A stretch of DNA of 64,000 nt from Geothrix sp. SG200 (GTDB lineage Bacteria > Acidobacteriota > Holophagae > Holophagales > Holophagaceae), in the NCBI RefSeq assembly GCF_022808935.1, contig NZ_JAKZFR010000002.1:372001-436000 (forward strand). The letters run 5' to 3'. A program made the translations under genes and the position numbers. Below the pieces are notes generated by a model that made no database searches, was not told the DNA's origin, and was given only the letters and a program-made list of their open reading frames with translations. Below, piece after piece: positions 2,523 to 49,012 of the stretch (position 1 is its first letter; every line of letters starts with the position of its first letter).

Positions 2523-3761
2523 ATGAGCGAACTCCTCAACAACCGGGAACACCGGATCGCCACCCTCAAGGAAGTGATCCTTCACCTTCACCGGGGCGAG
2601 GCCCCCGAGCAGGTGAAGGGCCGCCTTGCCCAGTTGGTGGGCGAGGTGGACGCCAGCGAGATCGCGGCCATGGAGCAGTCCCTCATGGCCGATGGCATGA
2701 GCCCCGAGGAGGTGAAGTCCATGTGCGACCTCCATGCGGAGGTGCTCCAGGACACGGTGACCCCGGCCAAGGCCCGGGAGCTGCCGGCGGGCCATCCCGT
2801 GGACACCTTCCGGCGCGAGAACCGCGCCCTGGAAGCGGCCGTGGCCACGGCCCGGGAGCGGGTGGGCGCCCTGGAACCCGTGCCGGACCAGGCCTATCCC
2901 GCCGACGAACGCCTGGCGGTGCTTTCGGCCTTCAACGCCCTGATGGACCTGGACAAGCACTACCAGCGCAAAGAGCACCTGGTCTTCTCCATCCTGGAGC
3001 GCCACGGCAACACCGGCCCCTCCAAGGTCATGTGGGCCAAGGACGACGAGGTGCGCGACCTGCTCAAGGGGGCCATCGAGGTGCTGCGCGAACAGAGCCT
3101 CAGCGGCGCCGAGCTGAAGATCCTGGTGCCCACGGTGCTGCGCCCTGCCCTGGCGGCGCTGGAATCCATGATCTACAAGGAGGAGACCATCCTCCTGCCC
3201 ATGTGCCTGGGGCTGTTTACCGAAGAGGAGTGGGGCGAGGTCTGGCGGGACAGCCCGCGCTACGGCTGGTGCCTGGTGGAGCCTGAGGTGGGCTACGAGC
3301 CGCCGGTGGCCAGCCTGCCGGAGGATCCCCTCCGCCTGCCCGACGCCTCGGCCGTGGCCTTCCCCAGCGGCGCCCTCAGCGTCCAGCAGCTCATCGGCAT
3401 CTTCTCCAGCCTGCCCGTGGACATCACCTTCGTGGACGCCGACGACCGCGTGGCCTTCTTCAGCGAAGGGCCGGACCGGGTCTTCGCCCGCAGCCGCACC
3501 ATCCTGGGCCGCGAGGTGAAGCACTGCCACCCGCCCAAGAGCGTGGACGTGGTGGAGCGCATCCTCAACGACTTCAAGACCGGTCGCCAGTCCGTGGCGG
3601 AGTTCTGGATCCAGATGCACGGGAAGTTCGTCCACATCCGCTACTTCTCCGTACGCGACGAGGCCGGGGCCTACCTGGGCACCCTGGAGGTCACCCAGGA
3701 CCTCACGCGGCTGCGCGCCCTCGAAGGCGACCGCCGCCTGCTCCAGTACGACGAAGCCTGA
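2523..3761 (+). CDS. DUF438 / hemerythrin-like / PAS domain protein
   Basis: A 412-residue cytoplasmic protein. The N-terminus (MSELLNNREHRIATLKEVILHLH) is the DUF438 domain. It is followed by a hemerythrin-like four-helix region at about residues 95-240, with His/Glu-rich helices (GHPVDTFRREN, DKHYQRKEHLVFSILERHG), and a C-terminal PAS-like domain at about 285-405 (VDITFVDADDRVAFFSEGPDRVFARS). Such proteins are usually considered di-iron sensors of O2, NO or redox state, but no output domain is visible here. I chose ATG 2523 because it matches the usual family start; in-frame starts at 2436 and 2487 would add a non-conserved tail. The spacer before it (2440-2500) is unusually AT-rich and probably holds the promoter. 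The next gene lies 7 bp downstream and is a likely partner. Confidence 0.85.
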   Translation: MSELLNNREHRIATLKEVILHLHRGEAPEQVKGRLAQLVGEVDASEIAAMEQSLMADGMSPEEVKSMCDLHAEVLQDTVTPAKARELPAGHPVDTFRRENRALEAAVATARERVGALEPVPDQAYPADERLAVLSAFNALMDLDKHYQRKEHLVFSILERHGNTGPSKVMWAKDDEVRDLLKGAIEVLREQSLSGAELKILVPTVLRPALAALESMIYKEETILLPMCLGLFTEEEWGEVWRDSPRYGWCLVEPEVGYEPPVASLPEDPLRLPDASAVAFPSGALSVQQLIGIFSSLPVDITFVDADDRVAFFSEGPDRVFARSRTILGREVKHCHPPKSVDVVERILNDFKTGRQSVAEFWIQMHGKFVHIRYFSVRDEAGAYLGTLEVTQDLTRLRALEGDRRLLQYDEA

Positions 3762-40038: not shown

Positions 40039-40114
40039 GGGCCTGTAGCTCAGCTGGGAGAGCGCTGCGTTCGCAATGCAGAGGTCGTCAGTTCGATCCT
40101 GATCAGGTCCACCA
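40039..40114 (+). tRNA. tRNA-Ala (anticodon CGC)
   Basis: A 76-base tRNA with CCA encoded. Acceptor GGGCCTG/CAGGTCC contains the G3:U70 pair that identifies alanine tRNA. D stem GCTC/GAGC, anticodon stem CTGCG/TGCAG with loop TTCGCAA, giving anticodon CGC for GCG codons; T arm GTCAG-TTCGATC-CTGAT. A terminator follows at 40124 and a split copy of its 3' part at 40181-40280. Confidence 0.96.
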
Positions 40115-40328: not shown

Positions 40329-42164
40329 CTAGAACACCGCCTCCATGGGCGCAGTCTCGCCGGCGCGCAGGGCCACGGCCTGGGCGGCCACCAGGGGCAG
40401 GCCGCGGTGGGCGAAGTGGATCGCGGCCTGGACCTTGTTCTGGTAGAAGGCGGCCTCGGAGCTGCCGGCCAGGAGATCCCGTACGGCCTTGGCGTCGGCG
40501 GCGTCCACACCCCGCTCCTGCATCAGGTTGGCCAGCTTGCCCTTGGCCAGGACCGCCTGCTGGAGCAGCAGGTGACCCGCCACCACGTGGCCGACCATAT
40601 CCAGGATGGGCACGGCGTTCAGGCCCGTCAGCAGGGCGGCGTTCTCGTGGGCGGGGATCTCCTGGAGCACTGTCCCCAGCGCCTTCGCGGCCTCGCCCAG
40701 CTGGCGAGCGGAGGGGCCCAGGAGCGGGTCCGCGGCCAGAGCCTGGACCGCGGTCCCCACCTGACCCATCAGGGCCTTCACGGGCTTGCCCTCCTGCATG
40801 CGGAACTTCCGGCCCACCAGGTCCAGGGCCTGGATGCCGTTGGTGCCTTCGTAGATGGAGGCGATCTTGCAGTCGCGGAGGTACTGCTCCGCGGGGTATT
40901 CCATGGTGTAGCCGTAGCCGCCGAAGGTCTGGAGGGCCCATTCGGTCACGCGGAAGCCCCAGTCGGAGCACCAGGCCTTGCAGACGGGGGTGAACAGCTC
41001 CACCAGCCCTTGCCAGCGGTTCTTCTCTTCCCCCTCAGAGACGTGGGCCATGTCCATGCACCAGGCCGTGTAGGTCACGAGGGCGCGCATGGCCTGGACG
41101 TAGGCGGACTGCATGAGGAGCATCCGTCGCACATCGGGGTGCTCGACGATGAGCGACTGCCCGACGCCCTTGGCGGCCCCGGGAGCGCGGCCCTGCAGGC
41201 GCTCCTTGGCATAGGCCAGGGCCGCCTGGTGGGCGGCGGAGGCGTTGCCCAGGCCCTGGACGCCCACCTCGTACCGGGCGGCATTCATCATCACGAACAT
41301 GTGGGCGAGGCCCTGCCCTTCCTGTCCCAGCAGGAAGCCCTGGGTGCCGCCGTTGGTGCCGAACACCAGGCTGCAGGTGGGCGAGCCGTGAATGCCCAGC
41401 TTGTGCTCGATGCCCGCGCAGGCCACATCGTTGGGGGCGCCGAGGCTTCCGTCGGCGTTCACACGGACTTTGGGCACCACGAAGAGGCTGATGCCCTTGG
41501 GGCCGGCCGGCGCGTCCGGCGTGCGGGCCAGCACAGCGTGGATGATGTTCGGCACGAGCTCGTGGTCGCCGCTGGTGATGAAGATCTTCTCGCCGGTGAT
41601 GAGGTAGGAGCCGTCCGCCTGCTTCACGGCCTTCGTGGTGAGGGCGCCCAGGTCGCTGCCGGCGCCGGCCTCGGTGAGGCACATGGTGCCGGTCCACTCG
41701 CCGGTGTACATCTTTTCGCAGTAGGCCGCCTTCAGGTCGTCGCTCCCGAAGGTCTCGATGAGGTGGGCGGCGCCGCGGGTGAGGAGCACCTTGAGGCCCA
41801 GGGCCGTGTTCGCGCCCATGAGGTACTCGCTGATGCCGGTGCCCACCGCCTCAGGCAGGCCCATGCCGCCGAACTCGGGGTTCATGGTGGCGCTGATCCA
41901 GCCGCCGGAGGCGAGGTCCTGGAAGGCTTCGGCAAACCCGTCCGGCAGCCGCACCTTCCCGTTCTCCCACTGGGCGCCGACCCGGTCGCCGACCTCGTTG
42001 CAGTCGGCCACGCTGCCCTTGGCCACCTTGAGGGCCTCGTCCAGCACCATGGCCAGCTGGTCGCGGTCGACCTCCTGGTAGGGCTCGGCCTTCAGGACCG
42101 CATCCAGATCCAGCCATTCGAGGAGGTTGAACTTGATGTCGCGGGCGTCGTCCAGGTACTTCAT
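40329..42164 (-). CDS. Acyl-CoA dehydrogenase (long, AidB/DmdC-like class)
   Basis: A 611-residue FAD enzyme. It has the long form of the family (about 600 residues) with an N-terminal extra segment ([21 protein letters not shown]), the FAD blocks [19 protein letters not shown] and [12 protein letters not shown], the helical domain with [29 protein letters not shown] (given only as landmarks), and the catalytic-base region [16 protein letters not shown]-terminal domain of about 130 residues completes the DmdC-like type. These enzymes oxidise short or medium acyl-CoA, including methylmercaptopropionyl-CoA; the substrate is not certain. RBS GGAGG before ATG 42164. It lies 135 bp after the acyl-CoA synthetase gene and likely consumes its product. 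Confidence 0.93.
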
Positions 42165-42299
42165 GGGAACCTCCGGAAAGCATGGCTGAGTGAGTGGATG
42201 GATGGCGGGAACGGGGACGGATCTCCATTCTTCGATGGGGAGCCCGCCCTTCCAATACCTGTCCTCAGGTAAGTTGGGGCGGGCCTCCCAGGACGATGG

Positions 42300-43976
42300 C
42301 TACTTCAGTTCAGGGAACTGCTCCTCGCGGAACTCCAGGGCGGAAGGCGTGGGATCCGCGGCCCGCTTGCGCAGCTCCACGCGCCGGATCTTGCCGGAGA
42401 TGGTCTTGGGAAGATCGCCGAACTCGATGATGCGGATGCGCTTGTAGGGGGAGATGCGCTCGCGGATGAAGCGGAAGAGCGCCAGAGCCGTGGCCCGGTC
42501 CGGCTCGTAGCCCGCCCGCAGGATGATGTAGGCCTTGGGCACGGAGAGCTTGAGGGGATCGGGACTCGGCACCACCGCCGCCTCGGCGACGGACTCGTGC
42601 TCGATGAGGAAGGACTCCAGCTCGAAGGGGCTGATCCGGTAGTCGGAGCTCTTGAAGACATCGTCGGCCCGGCCCACGAAGCAGAGGTAGCCATCCTCGT
42701 CGCGGGTAGCCACGTCGCCGGTGCGGTACCAGCCTTCGGCCTCGGCCTTGCGCATCTTCTCGGGATCGTCCTTGTAGCCGGCCATGAGACTCGTGGGCCG
42801 GGGGTTCAGCTTGACGGCGATCTCACCCTCCTCCGCTTCCTTCCCCTCCGAATCCAGCAGCGCCACCTCGAAGCCCGGCAGCGGCCGCCCCATGGACCCG
42901 GACTTCACCGCCTGCCCGGGCGAGTTGCCCACGATGGCCGTGGTCTCCGTCTGGCCGTAGCCGTCGCGGATGGTGAGGCCCCAGGCCCTTTCCACCTGGC
43001 TGATGACCTCGGGATTCAGGGGCTCGCCGGCGCCCACCAGGGCCCGGAGCTTCACCTGGTAGGCCGCCAGGTCCTCCTGGATGAAGAGGCGCCATACGGT
43101 TGGGGGGGCGCAGAGGGTGGTCACGCCCTTGTCGACAATGGTCTTGAGGGTGGCGGACGCGCTGAAGCGGGCCGCCCGGTAGACGAAGATGCAGGCCCCG
43201 GCGTTCCAGGGCGCGAAGAAGCTGCTCCAGGCGTGCTTGGCCCACCCCGGCGAGCTGATGTTGTAGTGGACGTCGCCTTCCCGCAGGCCCACCCAGTACA
43301 TCGTGGACAGGTGGCCCACGGGATAGGACTGGTGGGTGTGGACCACCAGCTTGGGCTTGGCCGTGGTGCCGGAGGTGAAGTAGAGCAGCATGGAGTCCGC
43401 AGCGCGGGTGGGCGCATCCGGCGTGAAGACGGTCGAACCCGCGTAGAGCTCGGACACGTCGTGCCAGCCAGACACCGCCGCGCCCACGCAGATTCGGGTG
43501 AGGCTGGCGTCCAGGCCGTCGAACTTGGCCGTCTGGGCCGAGTCCACGACCAGGTGGCGAATCCCGCCGCGCTCGATGCGGTCCTGGAGGTCGGCCTGGG
43601 AGAGCAAGAGGGTGGAGGGGACCATCACCGCGCCGAGCTTGATGCAGGCCAGCATCACCTCCCAGAGGGGGAGGACGTTGTCCAGCATGATCAGCAGGCC
43701 GTCGCCGCGCTTCACGCCCATGGCCCGCAGGGTGTTGGCCACCTGGTTGCTGCGCCGGGAGAGCTCCTGGAAGCTCACCTTCGTCTCCGTCCCGTTCTCC
43801 TCGACGATCCACAGCGCGGGCCGGTCGTTACCCGCGGCGTAGGCGTCGAAGTAGTCCAGGGCCCAGTTGAAGGTGTCGAGGACGGGCCAGCGGAAGTCGC
43901 GGCGGGCACCCTCGTAGTCGTCCCGGTGCTGGACGAGGAAGTCCCTGGCCTGGAGAAACGCTTCGCGACCATTCAT
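42300..43976 (-). CDS. AMP-forming acyl-CoA synthetase with PX4GK acylation motif
   Basis: A 558-residue ANL-superfamily ligase that activates a carboxylic acid via an acyl-AMP to acyl-CoA. A3 motif LLYFTSGTTAKPKLVVHTH, A5 region DGYGQTETTAIVGNSPG, A7 YRTGDVATRDEDGYLCFVGRADD and A10 PKTISGKIRR with catalytic Lys529. The stretch P523-KTIS-G528-K529 is exactly the PX4GK motif recognised by Pat-type lysine acetyltransferases. The sequence best matches medium-chain or ACSM-like synthetases. ATG 43976 follows AGGAGG. Divergent from a Pat/AcuB/AcuC-type cluster, which likely regulates it by reversible acylation of Lys529. Confidence 0.93.
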   Translation of the reverse strand: MNGREAFLQARDFLVQHRDDYEGARRDFRWPVLDTFNWALDYFDAYAAGNDRPALWIVEENGTETKVSFQELSRRSNQVANTLRAMGVKRGDGLLIMLDNVLPLWEVMLACIKLGAVMVPSTLLLSQADLQDRIERGGIRHLVVDSAQTAKFDGLDASLTRICVGAAVSGWHDVSELYAGSTVFTPDAPTRAADSMLLYFTSGTTAKPKLVVHTHQSYPVGHLSTMYWVGLREGDVHYNISSPGWAKHAWSSFFAPWNAGACIFVYRAARFSASATLKTIVDKGVTTLCAPPTVWRLFIQEDLAAYQVKLRALVGAGEPLNPEVISQVERAWGLTIRDGYGQTETTAIVGNSPGQAVKSGSMGRPLPGFEVALLDSEGKEAEEGEIAVKLNPRPTSLMAGYKDDPEKMRKAEAEGWYRTGDVATRDEDGYLCFVGRADDVFKSSDYRISPFELESFLIEHESVAEAAVVPSPDPLKLSVPKAYIILRAGYEPDRATALALFRFIRERISPYKRIRIIEFGDLPKTISGKIRRVELRKRAADPTPSALEFREEQFPELK

Positions 43977-44143
43977 CTGGTCCTCCTGATTCGCTTGGGG
44001 GGTATAGAGCAATCTAGGATGGCCATGACCGGCCGTCCAGGATGAAAAACGACATGCAGGGGGAGAAAGGATCTCAAGTAGGGCCCGGCCCCGGGAGCGC
44101 ATGATAGGGTGGTCGCATTGCACCCCGATCCGCGAGGCACCCT

Positions 44144-46582
44144 GTGTTCAGCATCATCCCTGACGGCGCAGGCTACCGGGAATTCGTCCTCCTGAAGGAC
44201 GGCCAGGGCGTTCTCCTGCGGATCGCCTCTCCGGAGGATGCGGACCGCGTGGAGGCCTTCATCAGCGGCCTCTCCCGGGAGAGCATGGCCATGCGCTTCA
44301 TGGGCGGCGTGTCGAGCGTATCCCGCAAGTTCGTGGAGGATCTCTGCGACGAGAACCCCCGACAGCGCGCCTGCCTCCTGGCCATCGAGGGCGAGGGGGC
44401 GGAGCAGCAGGTGCTCGGTCTGGGGAACTACGTGGGCGATGGCGGGGCCGTCGCGGAAGTCGCGTTCATGATCGCGGACGCCCACCAGGGCCGGGGCATC
44501 GGCACGCTGATCCTCGAGCGGCTCGCGGGCCTGGCGGCGGGCGCGGGCTACGTCGGCTTCGAAGCCGAGGTGCTCCACGAGAACCAGAAGATGGTCAACG
44601 TCTTCCGTGATTCCGGGTTCGAGACCACCCGGGCCATGGAGGGCGGCATCATCCATGTGCGCTTCCCCCTGAGCGCCCCCGAGGCCCAGCGCGAGCGGGC
44701 CGAGATCCGCGAGCGGGTGGCCACCGCCAACTCCCTGGTGCCGCTCCTTCGGCCGGGCAGTGTGGCCGTGGTGGGCGCCTCCCGGGATCCCGGCTCCGTG
44801 GGGAGCACCATCTTCCGCAACATCCTCCGGGGCGGCTTCCAGGGCGCGGTCTACCCGGTCAATCCCAGGGCCAAGGCCATCGAAGGCGTCCAGGCCTATC
44901 CCTCCCTGGCCTCCCTGCCGGAACCCCCGGATCTGGTGGTCCTGGCGGTGCCGGCGGCCAAGGTGTCCGCCCTTGCCCGGCGTGCCCTGGACAAGGGCGC
45001 GCGCGGCCTCCTGGTCCTCACGGCCGGATTCGCCGAGACCGGTCCGGAGGGCGCCCGGCGGCAGGAGCGGCTGGTGCGCCTCGCCCGCAGCCGGGGCGCG
45101 CGCCTGGTGGGGCCCAACTGCCTGGGGCTGCTGAACACCCATGCGGCGGTCCAGCTCAATGCCAGCCTGGCCACCGTGATGCCCCCCCGCGGGCGGGTCG
45201 GATTCTTCAGCCACTCCGCGGCCCTGGGCGTGGTGATCCTGCAGTACGCCGCGGAGCGCGGGCTGGGGTTCTCCTCCTTCGTCTCCGCCGGGAACCGCGC
45301 TGACGTCTCGGGCAACGACCTGCTCCAGTACTGGGAGGAGGATCCGGACACGGACCTGGCCCTTCTTTATCTGGAGACCTTCGGGAATCCGCGCCGCTTC
45401 GCCCGGCTGGCGCGCCGGATCTCCCACCGCAAGCCGGTGCTCTGCGTGAAGAGCGCCCGGAGCCATGCCGGGCGGCGTGTCGCCCAGGCCCACATCGCGG
45501 CGAGCCCCCAGAATGACGCGGAGGTGGAGGCCCTCTTCCACCAGGCCGGCGTGATCCGCGCCGACACCCTGGAAGACCTGTTCGACATCGCGCTGCTGCT
45601 GTCGCACCAGCCCCTGCCCCGGGGCGACCGGGTGGCCATCGTCAGCAACTCCGGCGGCGTGGCCACCATCTGCGCGGATGCCTGCGAATCCCACGGCATG
45701 CGGATCGCCGGCCCCGGGGTGGTGGACCTCCATGCCATGGCCACGGCGGAGCACTACGAGCGGGCCTGCCGGGAGGCCCTGGAGCATCCCGAAGTGGATG
45801 CCCTCATCGCCTCCTTCGCCTGCCTGGGGGACTGCGACCCGGCCCTGGTGGCCCGGGCCATCCGGCGGGCCGCCGTGCGGGCCGAGCAGACCACGGGCAT
45901 CGCCAAGCCGACCTTGCTCTCCCTCATGGGCGTGAGCGGGGCCATCCCCGTGGGATCGGCCGCCCTGGGCGAGGGGGGCGCCATGCACCGCACCTTCCCC
46001 TCCTACCGCTTCCCGGAGTCGGCGGCCCTGGCCCTGTCCAAGGTGGTCCAGTACGCCCAATTCCGCCGGCAGCCCCCGGGCCGCTTCCAGGGCTTCGCGG
46101 ACATCAACGCCGGCGAGGCCCGGCGGCGCGTGGAGCAGCTGGTGGAGAAGCTGCCCGATTCCGCCCAGGCGATCCTCTCCGTGACCCAGGCGCGGGAGCT
46201 CATGGGGCTCTTCGGCGTTCCCGTCACGAACCTCCCGGAACCCGCCGATCGGCGGGGCCCCAGGGTGGGGCTCAACCTCTCCACGGACCCCGACTTCGGG
46301 CCCATCTGGCGGTTCCACCGCCAGGGCATCGGCTCCATCCTGCGCATCACCCCGCTCACGGACCTGGACATCGCCGATGTCCTCGAGCGGATGCACCTGC
46401 CGCCCGGCAACGGCCTGGGCGAAACGCTGGGCCGTCTGACCCAGCTCGTGGAGGAACTGCCCTGGCTCCACACCCTGGAGGCCCAGGTCGCCGTCCACGG
46501 CGAGACCGGCGCCCTCAGCCCCCTGCCCCTGCAGCCGGACCTGCGCCTGACCTTCACCCAGGTCGGCTTCCGCAAGCCCTGA
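44144..46582 (+). CDS. GNAT plus NDP-forming acyl-CoA-synthetase-like protein acetyltransferase (type II Pat)
   Basis: An 812-residue fusion. Residues 20-180 are a GNAT domain with acetyl-CoA loop ADAHQGRGIGTLILERL (111-127). Residues 203-330 are a CoA-binding Rossmann domain (VAVVGASRDPGSVGSTIFRNILRGG), and 340-690 are the succinyl-CoA-ligase-like flavodoxin domains. The order GNAT first, large domain second is the type II arrangement of Pat protein acetyltransferases. The C-terminal ATP-grasp is reduced to about 100 residues: the front (ARELMGLFGVPVTNLPEP) runs straight into the end (DPDFGPIWRFHRQGIG, TPLTDLDIADVLERM), so most of the ATP-binding core is absent. I therefore read it as a sensing domain. 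GTG start at 44144. First gene of a run with AcuB- and AcuC-like genes. Confidence 0.88.
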   Translation: MFSIIPDGAGYREFVLLKDGQGVLLRIASPEDADRVEAFISGLSRESMAMRFMGGVSSVSRKFVEDLCDENPRQRACLLAIEGEGAEQQVLGLGNYVGDGGAVAEVAFMIADAHQGRGIGTLILERLAGLAAGAGYVGFEAEVLHENQKMVNVFRDSGFETTRAMEGGIIHVRFPLSAPEAQRERAEIRERVATANSLVPLLRPGSVAVVGASRDPGSVGSTIFRNILRGGFQGAVYPVNPRAKAIEGVQAYPSLASLPEPPDLVVLAVPAAKVSALARRALDKGARGLLVLTAGFAETGPEGARRQERLVRLARSRGARLVGPNCLGLLNTHAAVQLNASLATVMPPRGRVGFFSHSAALGVVILQYAAERGLGFSSFVSAGNRADVSGNDLLQYWEEDPDTDLALLYLETFGNPRRFARLARRISHRKPVLCVKSARSHAGRRVAQAHIAASPQNDAEVEALFHQAGVIRADTLEDLFDIALLLSHQPLPRGDRVAIVSNSGGVATICADACESHGMRIAGPGVVDLHAMATAEHYERACREALEHPEVDALIASFACLGDCDPALVARAIRRAAVRAEQTTGIAKPTLLSLMGVSGAIPVGSAALGEGGAMHRTFPSYRFPESAALALSKVVQYAQFRRQPPGRFQGFADINAGEARRRVEQLVEKLPDSAQAILSVTQARELMGLFGVPVTNLPEPADRRGPRVGLNLSTDPDFGPIWRFHRQGIGSILRITPLTDLDIADVLERMHLPPGNGLGETLGRLTQLVEELPWLHTLEAQVAVHGETGALSPLPLQPDLRLTFTQVGFRKP

Positions 46583-46625
46583 ACCCCGAGCCTGAACCCA
46601 CGACCGAACCCCGAGGAGGACCGCC

Positions 46626-47252
46626 ATGCTCGTGAAGGAGATGATGCGCCGGCCGGTGACGGTGGTCTCCGCGGAGGCCACCATCGGAGAGGCCTACCAG
46701 CTGCTCCAGGACCGCGGCTTCCGGCACCTGCCCGTGGTGGACCGGGGACGCCTGGTGGGCGTCCTCACGGACCGCGACCTCCGCCTGGCCACCAGCAGCC
46801 TCTGCCAGAATCCCCGCCCCGCCGGGGATCCCGTCTCTGCCGTCATGAGCAGCCCGCCCCTGACAGCGGATCCCCTGGACCCCGTGGAGGACGCCGCGCG
46901 GATCATGCGGGAGCACAAGATCGGCTGCCTGCCCGTAGTGGACGGCGGAGAGCTGGTCGGCATCCTCACGGGCATGGACCTGCTGGACGCCCTGATGATC
47001 CTCACCGGAGTGACCAAGCCCTCCTCCCGGCTGGAAGTGGCCCTCGCGGACCGGCCCGGCGAGCTGGCGCGGCTCACGGCCTTCCTCGCGGAGCGCCACG
47101 TCAACATCCACTCCATCCTCACCTACCCCTCGCCCGAGGCTGTCCGCACGGTGCTTCGGGTGGATTCCAACCAGATCCGCCCCCTGGCGGACGAGCTCCG
47201 GCGGGCGCAGTTCGAGGTCCTGTGGCCCATCCAGAAGCCATGGCAGCACTGA
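46626..47252 (+). CDS. acuB: AcuB-like CBS-CBS-ACT protein
   Basis: A 208-residue protein with two CBS domains (about 7-60, MLVKEMMRRPVTVVSAEATIGEAYQLL; about 75-130, SAVMSSPPLTADPLDPVEDAARIM) and a C-terminal ACT domain (SRLEVALADRPGELARLTAFLAERHVNIHSI, 135-165 onward). This is the AcuB architecture from the Bacillus acuABC operon. CBS pairs bind adenine nucleotides and ACT domains bind small ligands, so it may report energy state to the acetylase/deacetylase pair. RBS GAGGAGG. Overlaps the acuC-like start by 13 bases. Confidence 0.88.
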   Translation: MLVKEMMRRPVTVVSAEATIGEAYQLLQDRGFRHLPVVDRGRLVGVLTDRDLRLATSSLCQNPRPAGDPVSAVMSSPPLTADPLDPVEDAARIMREHKIGCLPVVDGGELVGILTGMDLLDALMILTGVTKPSSRLEVALADRPGELARLTAFLAERHVNIHSILTYPSPEAVRTVLRVDSNQIRPLADELRRAQFEVLWPIQKPWQH

Positions 47253-48373
47253 TCTACCGCCCGGAGTACGCCGGGTACGACTTCGGGCCGGAGCATCCCT
47301 TCACGCCGGCGCGGCTCGCCATGCTCCTGGACCTGATCCACACCCTGGGCCACGCCACCTCGCCCATCGCGGCGCCCGCGGCCACCCGGGAGGAGATCCT
47401 CGCGGTCCACGATGAGGCCTACGTGGCCATGGTCGAGGCCCTGGACCGCGGCGAGTCCAGGCCCGAGGCGGAGCAGTTCGGGCTGGGGACGCCGGACAAC
47501 CCCATCTTCCCGGGCATGGACCTCGCGGCCCGCTGGCTGGTGGGGGGCACCCTCCACGGGGCGCGGCTCCTGATGGAGGGAGCCGAGACCCGGGTGCTCC
47601 AGCTGGGTGGAGGCTTGCACCACGCCCAGAAGAACCGGGCGGCGGGGTTCTGCATGTACAACGACCTGGCCGTGGCCATCCGGGCCATGGTGCGCCACGG
47701 CTGGCGCGTGGCCTACCTCGACATCGACCTCCACCACGGCGATGGGGTCCAGAGCCTCTTCTACGACAGCGACCAGGTGCTGACCATCAGCCTGCACGAG
47801 ACGGGGCACTACCTCTATCCCGGCACCGGCCACATCCAGGAGCTGGGCGCCGGCACCGCGCGGGGGCTCAGCGTCAACATCCCCCTGGAGCCCTTCACGG
47901 AATCCGAGAGCTACCTCGAGGCCTTTGACGCCGTGGTACCCCGGGCCCTGGAGTGGTTCTCGCCCCACGTCCTGGTGGTGCAGGCCGGCGCGGATGCCCA
48001 TTTCGCCGATCCCCTGGGGGACCTGGCCCTGACCACCCAGACCTTCCAGGCCCTCTACCGCCGGATTCTCGACCTGGCCGCCGAGCGCACCCAGGGACGG
48101 GCGCTCTTCACCCTGGGCGGCGGCTACGAGGCCCAGGTCGTGGCCCGCGTCTGGACGATCCTCTACCTCACCCTGATGGACCTTCCCATCCCGGAACAGC
48201 TTCCCGATGCGTGGCTGGACCGCTGGCGCGAGCTGCTGGGGCCGGAAGTCGGACGGACCCTGCACGATCCCGTGCCGGCCTATCCGGAGCTCCCCGGCCG
48301 CGAGGAACGCAACCGGCGCAACGGCGACGTGGTCGCGCGGCTGATGGACTCGCTCTTCCGCTACTGGATGTAG
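47240..48373 (+). CDS. acuC: AcuC-like protein deacetylase (histone deacetylase family)
   Basis: A 377-residue zinc deacetylase. All class I HDAC active-site residues are present: His127-His128 in GGLHHAQKNRA, zinc ligands Asp163 and His165 in LDIDLHHGDGV, third ligand Asp252 in QAGADAHFADPLG and Tyr296 in GGGYE. AcuC proteins remove acetyl groups from acyl-CoA synthetases and re-activate them. It overlaps acuB, so it is made with it. ATG 47240 is preferred over the GTG at 47222. Confidence 0.92.
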   Translation: MAALIYRPEYAGYDFGPEHPFTPARLAMLLDLIHTLGHATSPIAAPAATREEILAVHDEAYVAMVEALDRGESRPEAEQFGLGTPDNPIFPGMDLAARWLVGGTLHGARLLMEGAETRVLQLGGGLHHAQKNRAAGFCMYNDLAVAIRAMVRHGWRVAYLDIDLHHGDGVQSLFYDSDQVLTISLHETGHYLYPGTGHIQELGAGTARGLSVNIPLEPFTESESYLEAFDAVVPRALEWFSPHVLVVQAGADAHFADPLGDLALTTQTFQALYRRILDLAAERTQGRALFTLGGGYEAQVVARVWTILYLTLMDLPIPEQLPDAWLDRWRELLGPEVGRTLHDPVPAYPELPGREERNRRNGDVVARLMDSLFRYWM

Positions 48374-48424: not shown

Positions 48425-49012
48425 ATGATCGGACGCCTGCGCGGGGAACTCATCCAGAAGCTGCCGAACCTGGCCCTCGTCGAGTGCGGGGGCGTGGGCT
48501 ACGCCGCGGCCATCAGCCTCTCCACCTACGGCCTGCTGCCGGAGGCGGGTACCCAGGTGGTGCTGCACACGGAGCTGCTGGTGCGCGAGAACGAGATCGC
48601 CCTGCTGGGCTTCTCCTCCACCCAGGAGCGCGAGCTCTACCGGCTGCTGGTGAAGGTGGACGGCGTGGGGCCCAAGCTGGCCCTGGCGGCCCTGGGCGCC
48701 CTCAGCCCCGAAGACCTGGTGCGGGCCATCCGGGGCCGCGACGTGAAGGCCCTCACGCGCATCCCCGGCGTGGGGAAGAAGACCGCCGAGAAGATGTGCT
48801 TCGAGCTGTCGGAGAAGCTGGGCGGCCTGTCGGGCCTGGACGGCCTGGCGGGCGGGCCCGCGGGCGACCCCTGGGAGGAGAACCTGCGCTCCGCCCTGAC
48901 GAATCTTGGCTTCAAGGAGGACGTGGTGCTGCCGGTGGTGGCGGACCTCCGCGCCTCCAAGCCGCCCCTGGCGGAGGCCATCCGCCATGCTTTGAAGGCC
49001 CTGCAGCGATGA
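48425..49012 (+). CDS. ruvA: Holliday junction branch-migration protein RuvA
   Basis: A 195-residue subunit that binds four-way junctions and loads RuvB. It has the OB-fold start MIGRLRGELIQKLPNLALVECGGVGYAA, HhH motifs VDGVGPKLALAALGAL and IPGVGKKTAEKMCFEL, and the C-terminal RuvB-binding domain after a GlyAla-rich linker. ruvB and ruvC are not beside it. Overlaps the next gene by four bases (ATGA). Confidence 0.96.
   Translation: MIGRLRGELIQKLPNLALVECGGVGYAAAISLSTYGLLPEAGTQVVLHTELLVRENEIALLGFSSTQERELYRLLVKVDGVGPKLALAALGALSPEDLVRAIRGRDVKALTRIPGVGKKTAEKMCFELSEKLGGLSGLDGLAGGPAGDPWEENLRSALTNLGFKEDVVLPVVADLRASKPPLAEAIRHALKALQR

Follow-up and report, generated by a model that had tools for sequence, protein, structure and literature searches.

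Which enzyme is controlled by a protein acetyltransferase, AcuB and AcuC when the gene facing them does not encode an acetyl-CoA synthetase of the AcsA family? This question is raised by a block of five genes in the soil and sediment bacterium Geothrix sp. SG200 (Acidobacteriota, Holophagaceae; assembly GCF_022808935.1, contig NZ_JAKZFR010000002.1, forward-strand positions 372,001 to 436,000). This whole stretch of 64,000 nucleotides (nt) is called the window below, and all coordinates refer to it. In the block, the genes of an AMP-forming acyl-CoA synthetase (ACS) and an acyl-CoA dehydrogenase (ACAD) are divergent from those of a type II acetyltransferase (Pat), AcuB and the deacetylase AcuC. 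We consider it probable that Pat acylates Lys529 of the divergent ACS and that AcuC, controlled by AcuB, reverses this modification; ACS may be one target among several. The original prediction, made from the sequence alone, had proposed such a switch from five open reading frames; these are real, and Pfam supports the family of each (lengths in amino acids, aa):

40329-42164, minus strand: ACAD, 611 aa, with the Pfam ACAD N-terminal, middle and C-terminal domains; presumably FadE/DmdC-like
42300-43976, minus strand: ACS, 558 aa, with Pfam AMP-binding and AMP-binding_C; PKTISGK with K529
43977-44143, no strand: divergent intergenic region between ACS and Pat, 167 nt
44144-46582, plus strand: type II Pat, 812 aa, GTG start, with Pfam GNAT, CoA_binding and Succ_CoA_lig
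46626-47252, plus strand: AcuB, 208 aa, with two Pfam CBS domains and an ACT domain
47240-48373, plus strand: AcuC, an HDAC-type deacetylase, 377 aa, Pfam Hist_deacetyl (288 bits)

The acuB and acuC genes overlap by 13 nt, and 51 nt separate the acuC stop from the next gene. The genome itself (G000) comprises 3.36 Mb in 10 contigs; in the following, L numbers denote loci and G numbers genomes.

Pat, AcuB, AcuC and the divergent synthetase

A type II Pat is defined by an N-terminal GNAT domain and a C-terminal NDP-forming synthetase-like domain (PMC8556138; papers are cited here by PMC number), and this domain order is found in the window Pat by Pfam, through its solved relatives and in its structural model. 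The GNAT part covers residues 1 to about 190, followed by a CoA-binding part (204-331) and a part resembling succinyl-CoA ligase (349-485). The closest relative of the GNAT part is S. lividans PatA (SlPatA, 4nxy, E 3e-21), E. coli PatZ being more distant; the HQGRGIG CoA loop is kept and Glu105 occupies the position of the SlPatA and PatZ glutamate. By its title, entry 4u5y is the SlPatA GNAT solved together with the C-terminal domain of an acetyl-CoA synthetase. The AlphaFold2 model of the window Pat (pLDDT 87.6, pTM 0.87) matches the ADP-forming 4-hydroxybutyryl-CoA synthetase 8wzu as well as PatZ 9it0. In type II Pats, inactivity of the synthetase part is linked to a lost catalytic histidine; here, the histidine of PH0766 (2csu) corresponds in the alignment to His450, which is kept in Geothrix and missing in L112, L169 and L171. 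The synthetase-like domains of type I and type II Pats are inactive and bind acetyl-CoA (PMC8556138), and the corresponding part of the window Pat would be regulatory and non-catalytic. The protein is identical (100%) in Geothrix paludis, 92-97% identical in five other named Geothrix species, 82% in G. limicola and 73% in G. rubra. As had been proposed, this 812-aa protein with GNAT and NDP-synthetase-like parts stands in the place of AcuA, and there is no single-domain GNAT at the locus. A sequence relationship between AcuA and the GNAT part of Pat was also considered and dropped, the pairwise alignment being unconvincing.

The nearest solved relative of AcuB is the G. stearothermophilus protein (9s4w, E 5.4e-46). 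Functional sites described in PMC13039410 and PMC13121692 were mapped onto the window proteins through Anoxybacillus AcuB and AcuC. The window AcuB keeps R33, H34, R50 and D118 of the nucleotide site and D85, E88 and W200 of the AcuC interface; in the numbering of the papers, the kept equivalents are R33, H34, R51, D89, E92, C105, D122 and W206. Among the 54 locus rows compared, the R33, H34, R51 and D89 equivalents are identical in all and those of E92, D122 and W206 in 53 each, while the Lys120 position is Gly in the window and Glu in Anoxybacillus. In AcuC, the equivalents of Tyr198 and Phe143 are kept, and the window interface positions read F137, H190, Y191 and Y193. The prediction that AcuC carries all zinc ligands agrees with H127, H128, D163, H165, D252 and Y296 at the HDAC catalytic motifs, where we take the roles of the individual residues to be those of the HDAC8 motifs. 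AcuB inhibits AcuC with AMP or Ap4A (PMC13121692, PMC13039410), and the conservation of the AcuB and AcuC residues makes an AMP- or Ap4A-dependent inhibition of the window AcuC likely. An AcuB-like match is present in 58 of 297 Acidobacteriota genomes (E 1e-15 or better; 35 at 1e-60 or better).

The pair also occurs in other combinations. In L156 and L157, from one acidobacterial family, the order is AcuC-AcuB-AcuB-AcuC, with one pair 32-34% and the other 56-64% identical to the window's. L165 and L166 have the order acsA-acuB-acuC with no Pat match in the stretch covered, so AcuB-AcuC can stand with acsA alone.

As predicted, residues 523-529 of ACS read PKTISGK, ending in K529. The substrate of this enzyme was less well captured by the prediction, which had called it a medium-chain-type synthetase: family models do not support this label, which stays unproven. 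The best NCBIfam model is MbcS (NF047394), against which ACS scores 420 bits with a cut-off of 850; the AcsA of Anoxybacillus (Bacillaceae) obtains 426 bits on the same model, and this label therefore discriminates little. ACS is also below the cut-offs for acetyl-CoA synthetases (TIGR02188, 249/725; NF003313, 349/729), and its nearest solved chain is the 4-hydroxybutyrate-CoA ligase 8biq. It has Gly341 where the Anoxybacillus enzyme and both AcsA enzymes of the own genome have Trp. A glycine instead of this tryptophan would open the pocket beyond acetate. For ACAD, the nearest solved chains by sequence are 8png, 8pns and 6ijc.

From these parts we infer an acuABC-like switch based on reversible lysine acylation, in which the acetyltransferase is a type II Pat. 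The NDP-synthetase-like part of Pat, presumably inactive, would sense acyl-CoA, and acylation of the catalytic Lys529 by Pat would prevent the divergent synthetase from forming the adenylate. AcuC would take the acyl group off, and AcuB loaded with AMP (or Ap4A) would cover the AcuC active site, so that the synthetase would stay off at low energy charge.

Conservation of the locus and change of its neighbours

A survey of synteny in the Holophagaceae, which had been suggested as a check of the prediction, shows that the arrangement recurs: ACS is directly divergent from Pat in 27 of the 32 loci with a Pat start, with 114-172 nt between the matches, which is more than chance. From this tally we left out L162, L163, L168 and L170 (Pat without start), the Pat fragments without start L026, L027, L035, L057 and L059, and L174 and L175 (which repeat the contigs of L004 and L022). 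The actinobacterial L046 and L049 (46-47%) were left out of the tallies, and G020, in which by coordinates an AcsA gene lies directly before Pat, stands outside the synteny tally. The predicted pairing of synthetase and dehydrogenase is seen as ACAD behind ACS in 26 of the 27 ACS-divergent loci, the contig ending at this point in L008. Nevertheless, ACAD is less tied to the switch than ACS. It stays where ACS, Pat, AcuB and AcuC are missing and it is not next to ACS in L019, which weakens its candidacy as a part of the switch.

In the five remaining Holophagaceae loci (L019, L056, L060, L061 and L119), an AcsA-family gene lies directly upstream on the Pat strand. In four of them ACS is found 4.4-6.9 kb further upstream (the contig of L119 ends), with ACAD behind it in all of these except L019, where no ACAD is beside ACS within the 3.9 kb covered on that side. 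Two types of AcsA-family gene are involved. One, acsA56, scores above the TIGR02188 cut-off (747/725), carries Trp at the pocket position and is upstream in L056, L112, L159, L160, L167 and L171; the other, acsA19, is below TIGR02188 (692/725), passes the broader NF001208 (722/657) and has Gly at the pocket position. In L019, L060, L061 and L119 the gene immediately before Pat is of the acsA19 type, which in L056 adjoins acsA56. Between ACS and acsA in L061, which belongs to the sister clade of the tree described below, positions 2537-3739 hold a 400-aa open reading frame with no Pfam match at 0.001.

ACS is adjacent to Pat in none of the nine acidobacterial loci outside the Holophagaceae. An AcsA-family gene is directly upstream in five of them; L161 has the order acsA-acuB-acuC-pat, in L113 acsA follows pat, no such gene lies within 7.3 kb in L169, and L114, with 79 bases upstream, is counted as uninformative. 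In two Ignavibacteriota pat-acuB-acuC loci, no match to the synthetase queries was found in the 10.0 and 2.4 kb upstream. In L113 and L176 (G054), a stretch of about 28 kb contains acuB-acuC-pat-acsA, two further acsA-type genes and an ACS with 71% identity to the window's.

The Pat tree (40 rows) groups all 25 ACS-divergent rows into a single clade (98/96), and the sister of this clade consists of the five acsA-adjacent Holophagaceae rows. Among the outgroups, acsA-adjacent rows recur, with L113 and L161 (other orders) between them. The topology is therefore explained most simply by an ancestral AcsA-family neighbour that was lost once from the locus, and ACS was probably already nearby before this loss. 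The ancestral operon would most likely have stood behind an AcsA-family gene, gone from the locus in the window's Geothrix clade, and the nearby ACS, presumably with a larger pocket, would then have adjoined Pat directly; it is most likely the principal target at the locus, though perhaps not the only one. The switch was probably retargeted from acetate activation to a different, neighbouring enzyme. More tentatively, Pat-AcuB-AcuC might be a portable cassette that in evolution exchanged its original target, acetyl-CoA synthetase, for a synthetase of larger acids feeding an acyl-CoA dehydrogenase, and Pat may use or sense the non-acetyl acyl-CoA product. If so, the locus would provide product-specific feedback on the entry into beta-oxidation, gated by AMP or Ap4A through AcuB.

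Within the genus, 35 of the 42 genomes examined have both ACS and Pat and seven have neither (G008, G009, G019, G023, G028, G133 and G308), without a single discordant genome. In seven of the 35, Pat was counted from partial matches at contig ends (G003, G011, G020, G027, G029, G030 and G034); G237 is outside the 42 genomes and G293 was counted from L240. Mapped onto a tree of AcsA genes from 37 genomes, the absences require five changes, losses or gains, at least three of them on well-supported branches; this tree is a single-gene proxy, and G308 has no AcsA copy used for it. The joint distribution favours ACS as a target, although physical linkage confounds it.

The block is flanked by two features:

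40039-40114, plus strand: tRNA-Ala(cgc), ARAGORN
48425-49012, plus strand: ruvA-like gene, downstream boundary of the block by tblastn comparison

The name ruvA is our assumption from the sequence. In G308, G133 and G001 (L193, L194 and L201), where the block is not at the site, 46-51 nt lie between the tRNA-Ala and ruvA; in G133 and G308 the distance is 48-51 nt with nothing between. The window and these three genomes form an occupied/empty site pair. In G008, G019 and G028 (L196, L197 and L198), probably two lineages, ACAD stands beside ruvA, and ACS, Pat, AcuB and AcuC were not found there. A tree of ruvA and the adjoining dehydrogenase was too poorly resolved for ordering the losses.

The divergent gap contains conserved elements in an alignment of 15 intergenic regions, which may correspond to divergent promoters and a ribosome-binding site (RBS):

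44102-44110, plus strand: putative extended -10-like element for Pat, TGATAGGGT, key letters invariant in the 15 aligned sequences
44011-44016, minus strand: TAGATT, putative promoter element for ACS, from alignment and sequence
44035-44040, minus strand: CTGGAC, putative promoter element for ACS, from alignment and sequence

The pattern TGnTAG--T upstream of Pat is invariant, and CTCCTG before ACS, RBS-like on the opposite strand, is found in 12 of the 15 regions. A consensus promoter scan called none in the gap (43977-44143).

Candidate targets of the switch

Several observations weigh against ACS as the target, or at least as the only one. The motif is the first of them. The exact PX4GK predicted in ACS is present and yet not distinctive, as seven of the nine AMP-binding proteins of the own genome carry it at the C-terminal end; the motif alone is therefore weak evidence, was rejected as proof of targeting, and marks a protein as possibly regulated, no more. 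Two of these proteins are AcsA-type enzymes with PKTRSGK, encoded on other contigs, and could be the real substrates. (An apparent truncated AcsA paralogue without the lysine, with in-frame "stops", was rejected: the stop in L095 is the end of the gene itself and PKTRSGK is present.) Recognition by SlPatA requires residues 8-52 before and 5-17 after the target lysine (PMC4053389). Motif matching therefore cannot settle targeting. The ACS site reads ISGKIRR, unlike the RSG(KAc)IMR of Bacillus AcsA. At the interface, AcuB Met188 is replaced by Ile, and AcuC Arg197 and Phe200 by His and Tyr; moreover, PMC13121692 and PMC13039410 disagree on the ligand, only AMP-loaded AcuB being inhibitory in one and Ap4A enhancing inhibition in the other. 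For MbcS, the authors who described the enzyme left open whether it is acetylated and judged control by acetyl-CoA unlikely (PMC10026030). The phylogenetic evidence has its own weaknesses. A pair test on the AcsA tree yields three supported contrasts, five in total (p 0.25), and is unable to reach significance, the identical distributions of ACS and Pat meaning that it counts contrasts only. As the two genes are neighbours, a single deletion, or a single gain, may account for each joint absence. Finally, the AcsA-family neighbours outside the window's clade imply that the partner of Pat and AcuBC has changed and may not be exclusive.

A broader role is possible and overlaps with the reading preferred here: Pat and AcuC could act as a general acyl-CoA-responsive switch on several PX4GK enzymes, ACS being one of many and AcuB gating the set. 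The frequency of the motif in the genome fits this, as do the single HDAC-family and single SIR2-family matches that were all we found in the own genome, and B. subtilis AcuC acts on multiple substrates (PMC13039410). The recurrent adjacency of a synthetase, on the other hand, suggests a preferred partner.

The main rival, which we regard as rather unlikely, is that Pat-AcuB-AcuC mainly controls acetyl-CoA synthetases encoded elsewhere, members of the ancestral partner family, with ACS and ACAD as passenger neighbours. It draws on the AcsA-family gene directly upstream in five of nine loci outside the Holophagaceae and five of 32 within, on the two AcsA-type enzymes of the own genome, and on B. 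subtilis AcuC, described as narrow and as co-evolved with the RSG(KAc)IMR of AcsA (PMC11532494). As a sole target, however, AcsA is weakened by the pattern of presence and absence: all seven Pat-less genomes of the genus retain one or two AcsA genes, so AcsA does not track Pat, while ACS does in 42 of 42. Moreover, the own genome has just two AcsA matches, and neither is of the acsA56 or acsA19 type found at the loci of relatives. It is very improbable that the cluster is inherited together as a mobile block, or one acquired horizontally, next to tRNA-Ala, its adjacency reflecting transfer and not regulation. The nearly joined tRNA-Ala and ruvA of G133, G308 and G001 and the position of the block away from ruvA in G032 and G001 would fit this reading, but transfer alone hardly accounts for a synthetase gene beside pat in several families of Acidobacteriota, and the G+C content of the block (0.698) is near that of the window (0.692).

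Comparison with known systems

In 2026, the gating by AcuB was explained for the switch of Bacillaceae, whose main target is acetyl-CoA synthetase. With the present locus family the module reaches Acidobacteriota and Ignavibacteriota, where the acetyltransferase is built differently, and natural swaps of the neighbouring synthetase become available. Two questions thereby become testable: what determines the synthetase chosen by a Pat and an HDAC, and whether acylation controls MbcS-like enzymes. In open-licence PMC papers, searched mostly at the level of titles and the beginnings of abstracts, we found no account of a type II Pat combined with AcuB and AcuC; this is no proof of absence.

Among type II Pats, SlPatA (4nxy, 4u5y) is alike in its N-terminal GNAT domain, its C-terminal NDP-synthetase-like region, the CoA loop and the aligned glutamate. 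In contrast to type II Pats of about 900 aa, the window Pat is shorter and lies within an acuBC operon. It has no ATP-grasp hit, and none was obtained in the four acuBC-linked Pats checked (P0002, L160, L112 and L024), whereas each of the four long type II Pats checked (L033, L042, L044 and L047; SlPatA is not among them) has a full ATP-grasp and L037 about half of one. In L041 (8512-9375) and L045 (8857-9432), an HDAC-like match (34-36%) precedes an actinobacterial type II Pat gene by no more than 0.7 kb, in the same orientation. The type I proteins, E. coli PatZ (9it0, 9isq) and Salmonella Pat, have the same parts, with a TM-score of 0.54-0.60 to the Pat model, in reversed order, the GNAT of PatZ being residues 710-881.

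MbcS, the short/branched-chain acyl-CoA synthetase of Staphylococcus aureus, provides the best model for ACS, yet at about half of its cut-off. The chains 8png and 8pns are, we presume, P. aeruginosa FadE1 and FadE2, the closest solved relatives of ACAD. The preference of FadE1 and FadE2 for long and medium chains (PMC11890623) is not transferable to ACAD.

The closest parallel to the whole locus is the acsA/acuABC locus of Bacillaceae (B. subtilis, Geobacillus, Anoxybacillus), the logic of which had been recognised in the original prediction. On plasmid pDSM15939_1 of Anoxybacillus amylolyticus (L192), acsA is divergent from a GNAT gene, acuB and acuC, a geometry identical to that of the window, including the overlap of acuB and acuC. 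The AcuB proteins share the CBS-CBS-ACT architecture with R33/H34, and the AcuC proteins the HDAC residue set. Nevertheless, the AcuA of Bacillaceae is a single GNAT (210 aa in L192), replaced in Geothrix by the 812-aa type II Pat; the divergent synthetase of Geothrix is not AcsA, by its score on NF003313 and by the Gly where AcsA has Trp; and, unlike in the Bacillaceae locus, it is followed by an acyl-CoA dehydrogenase.

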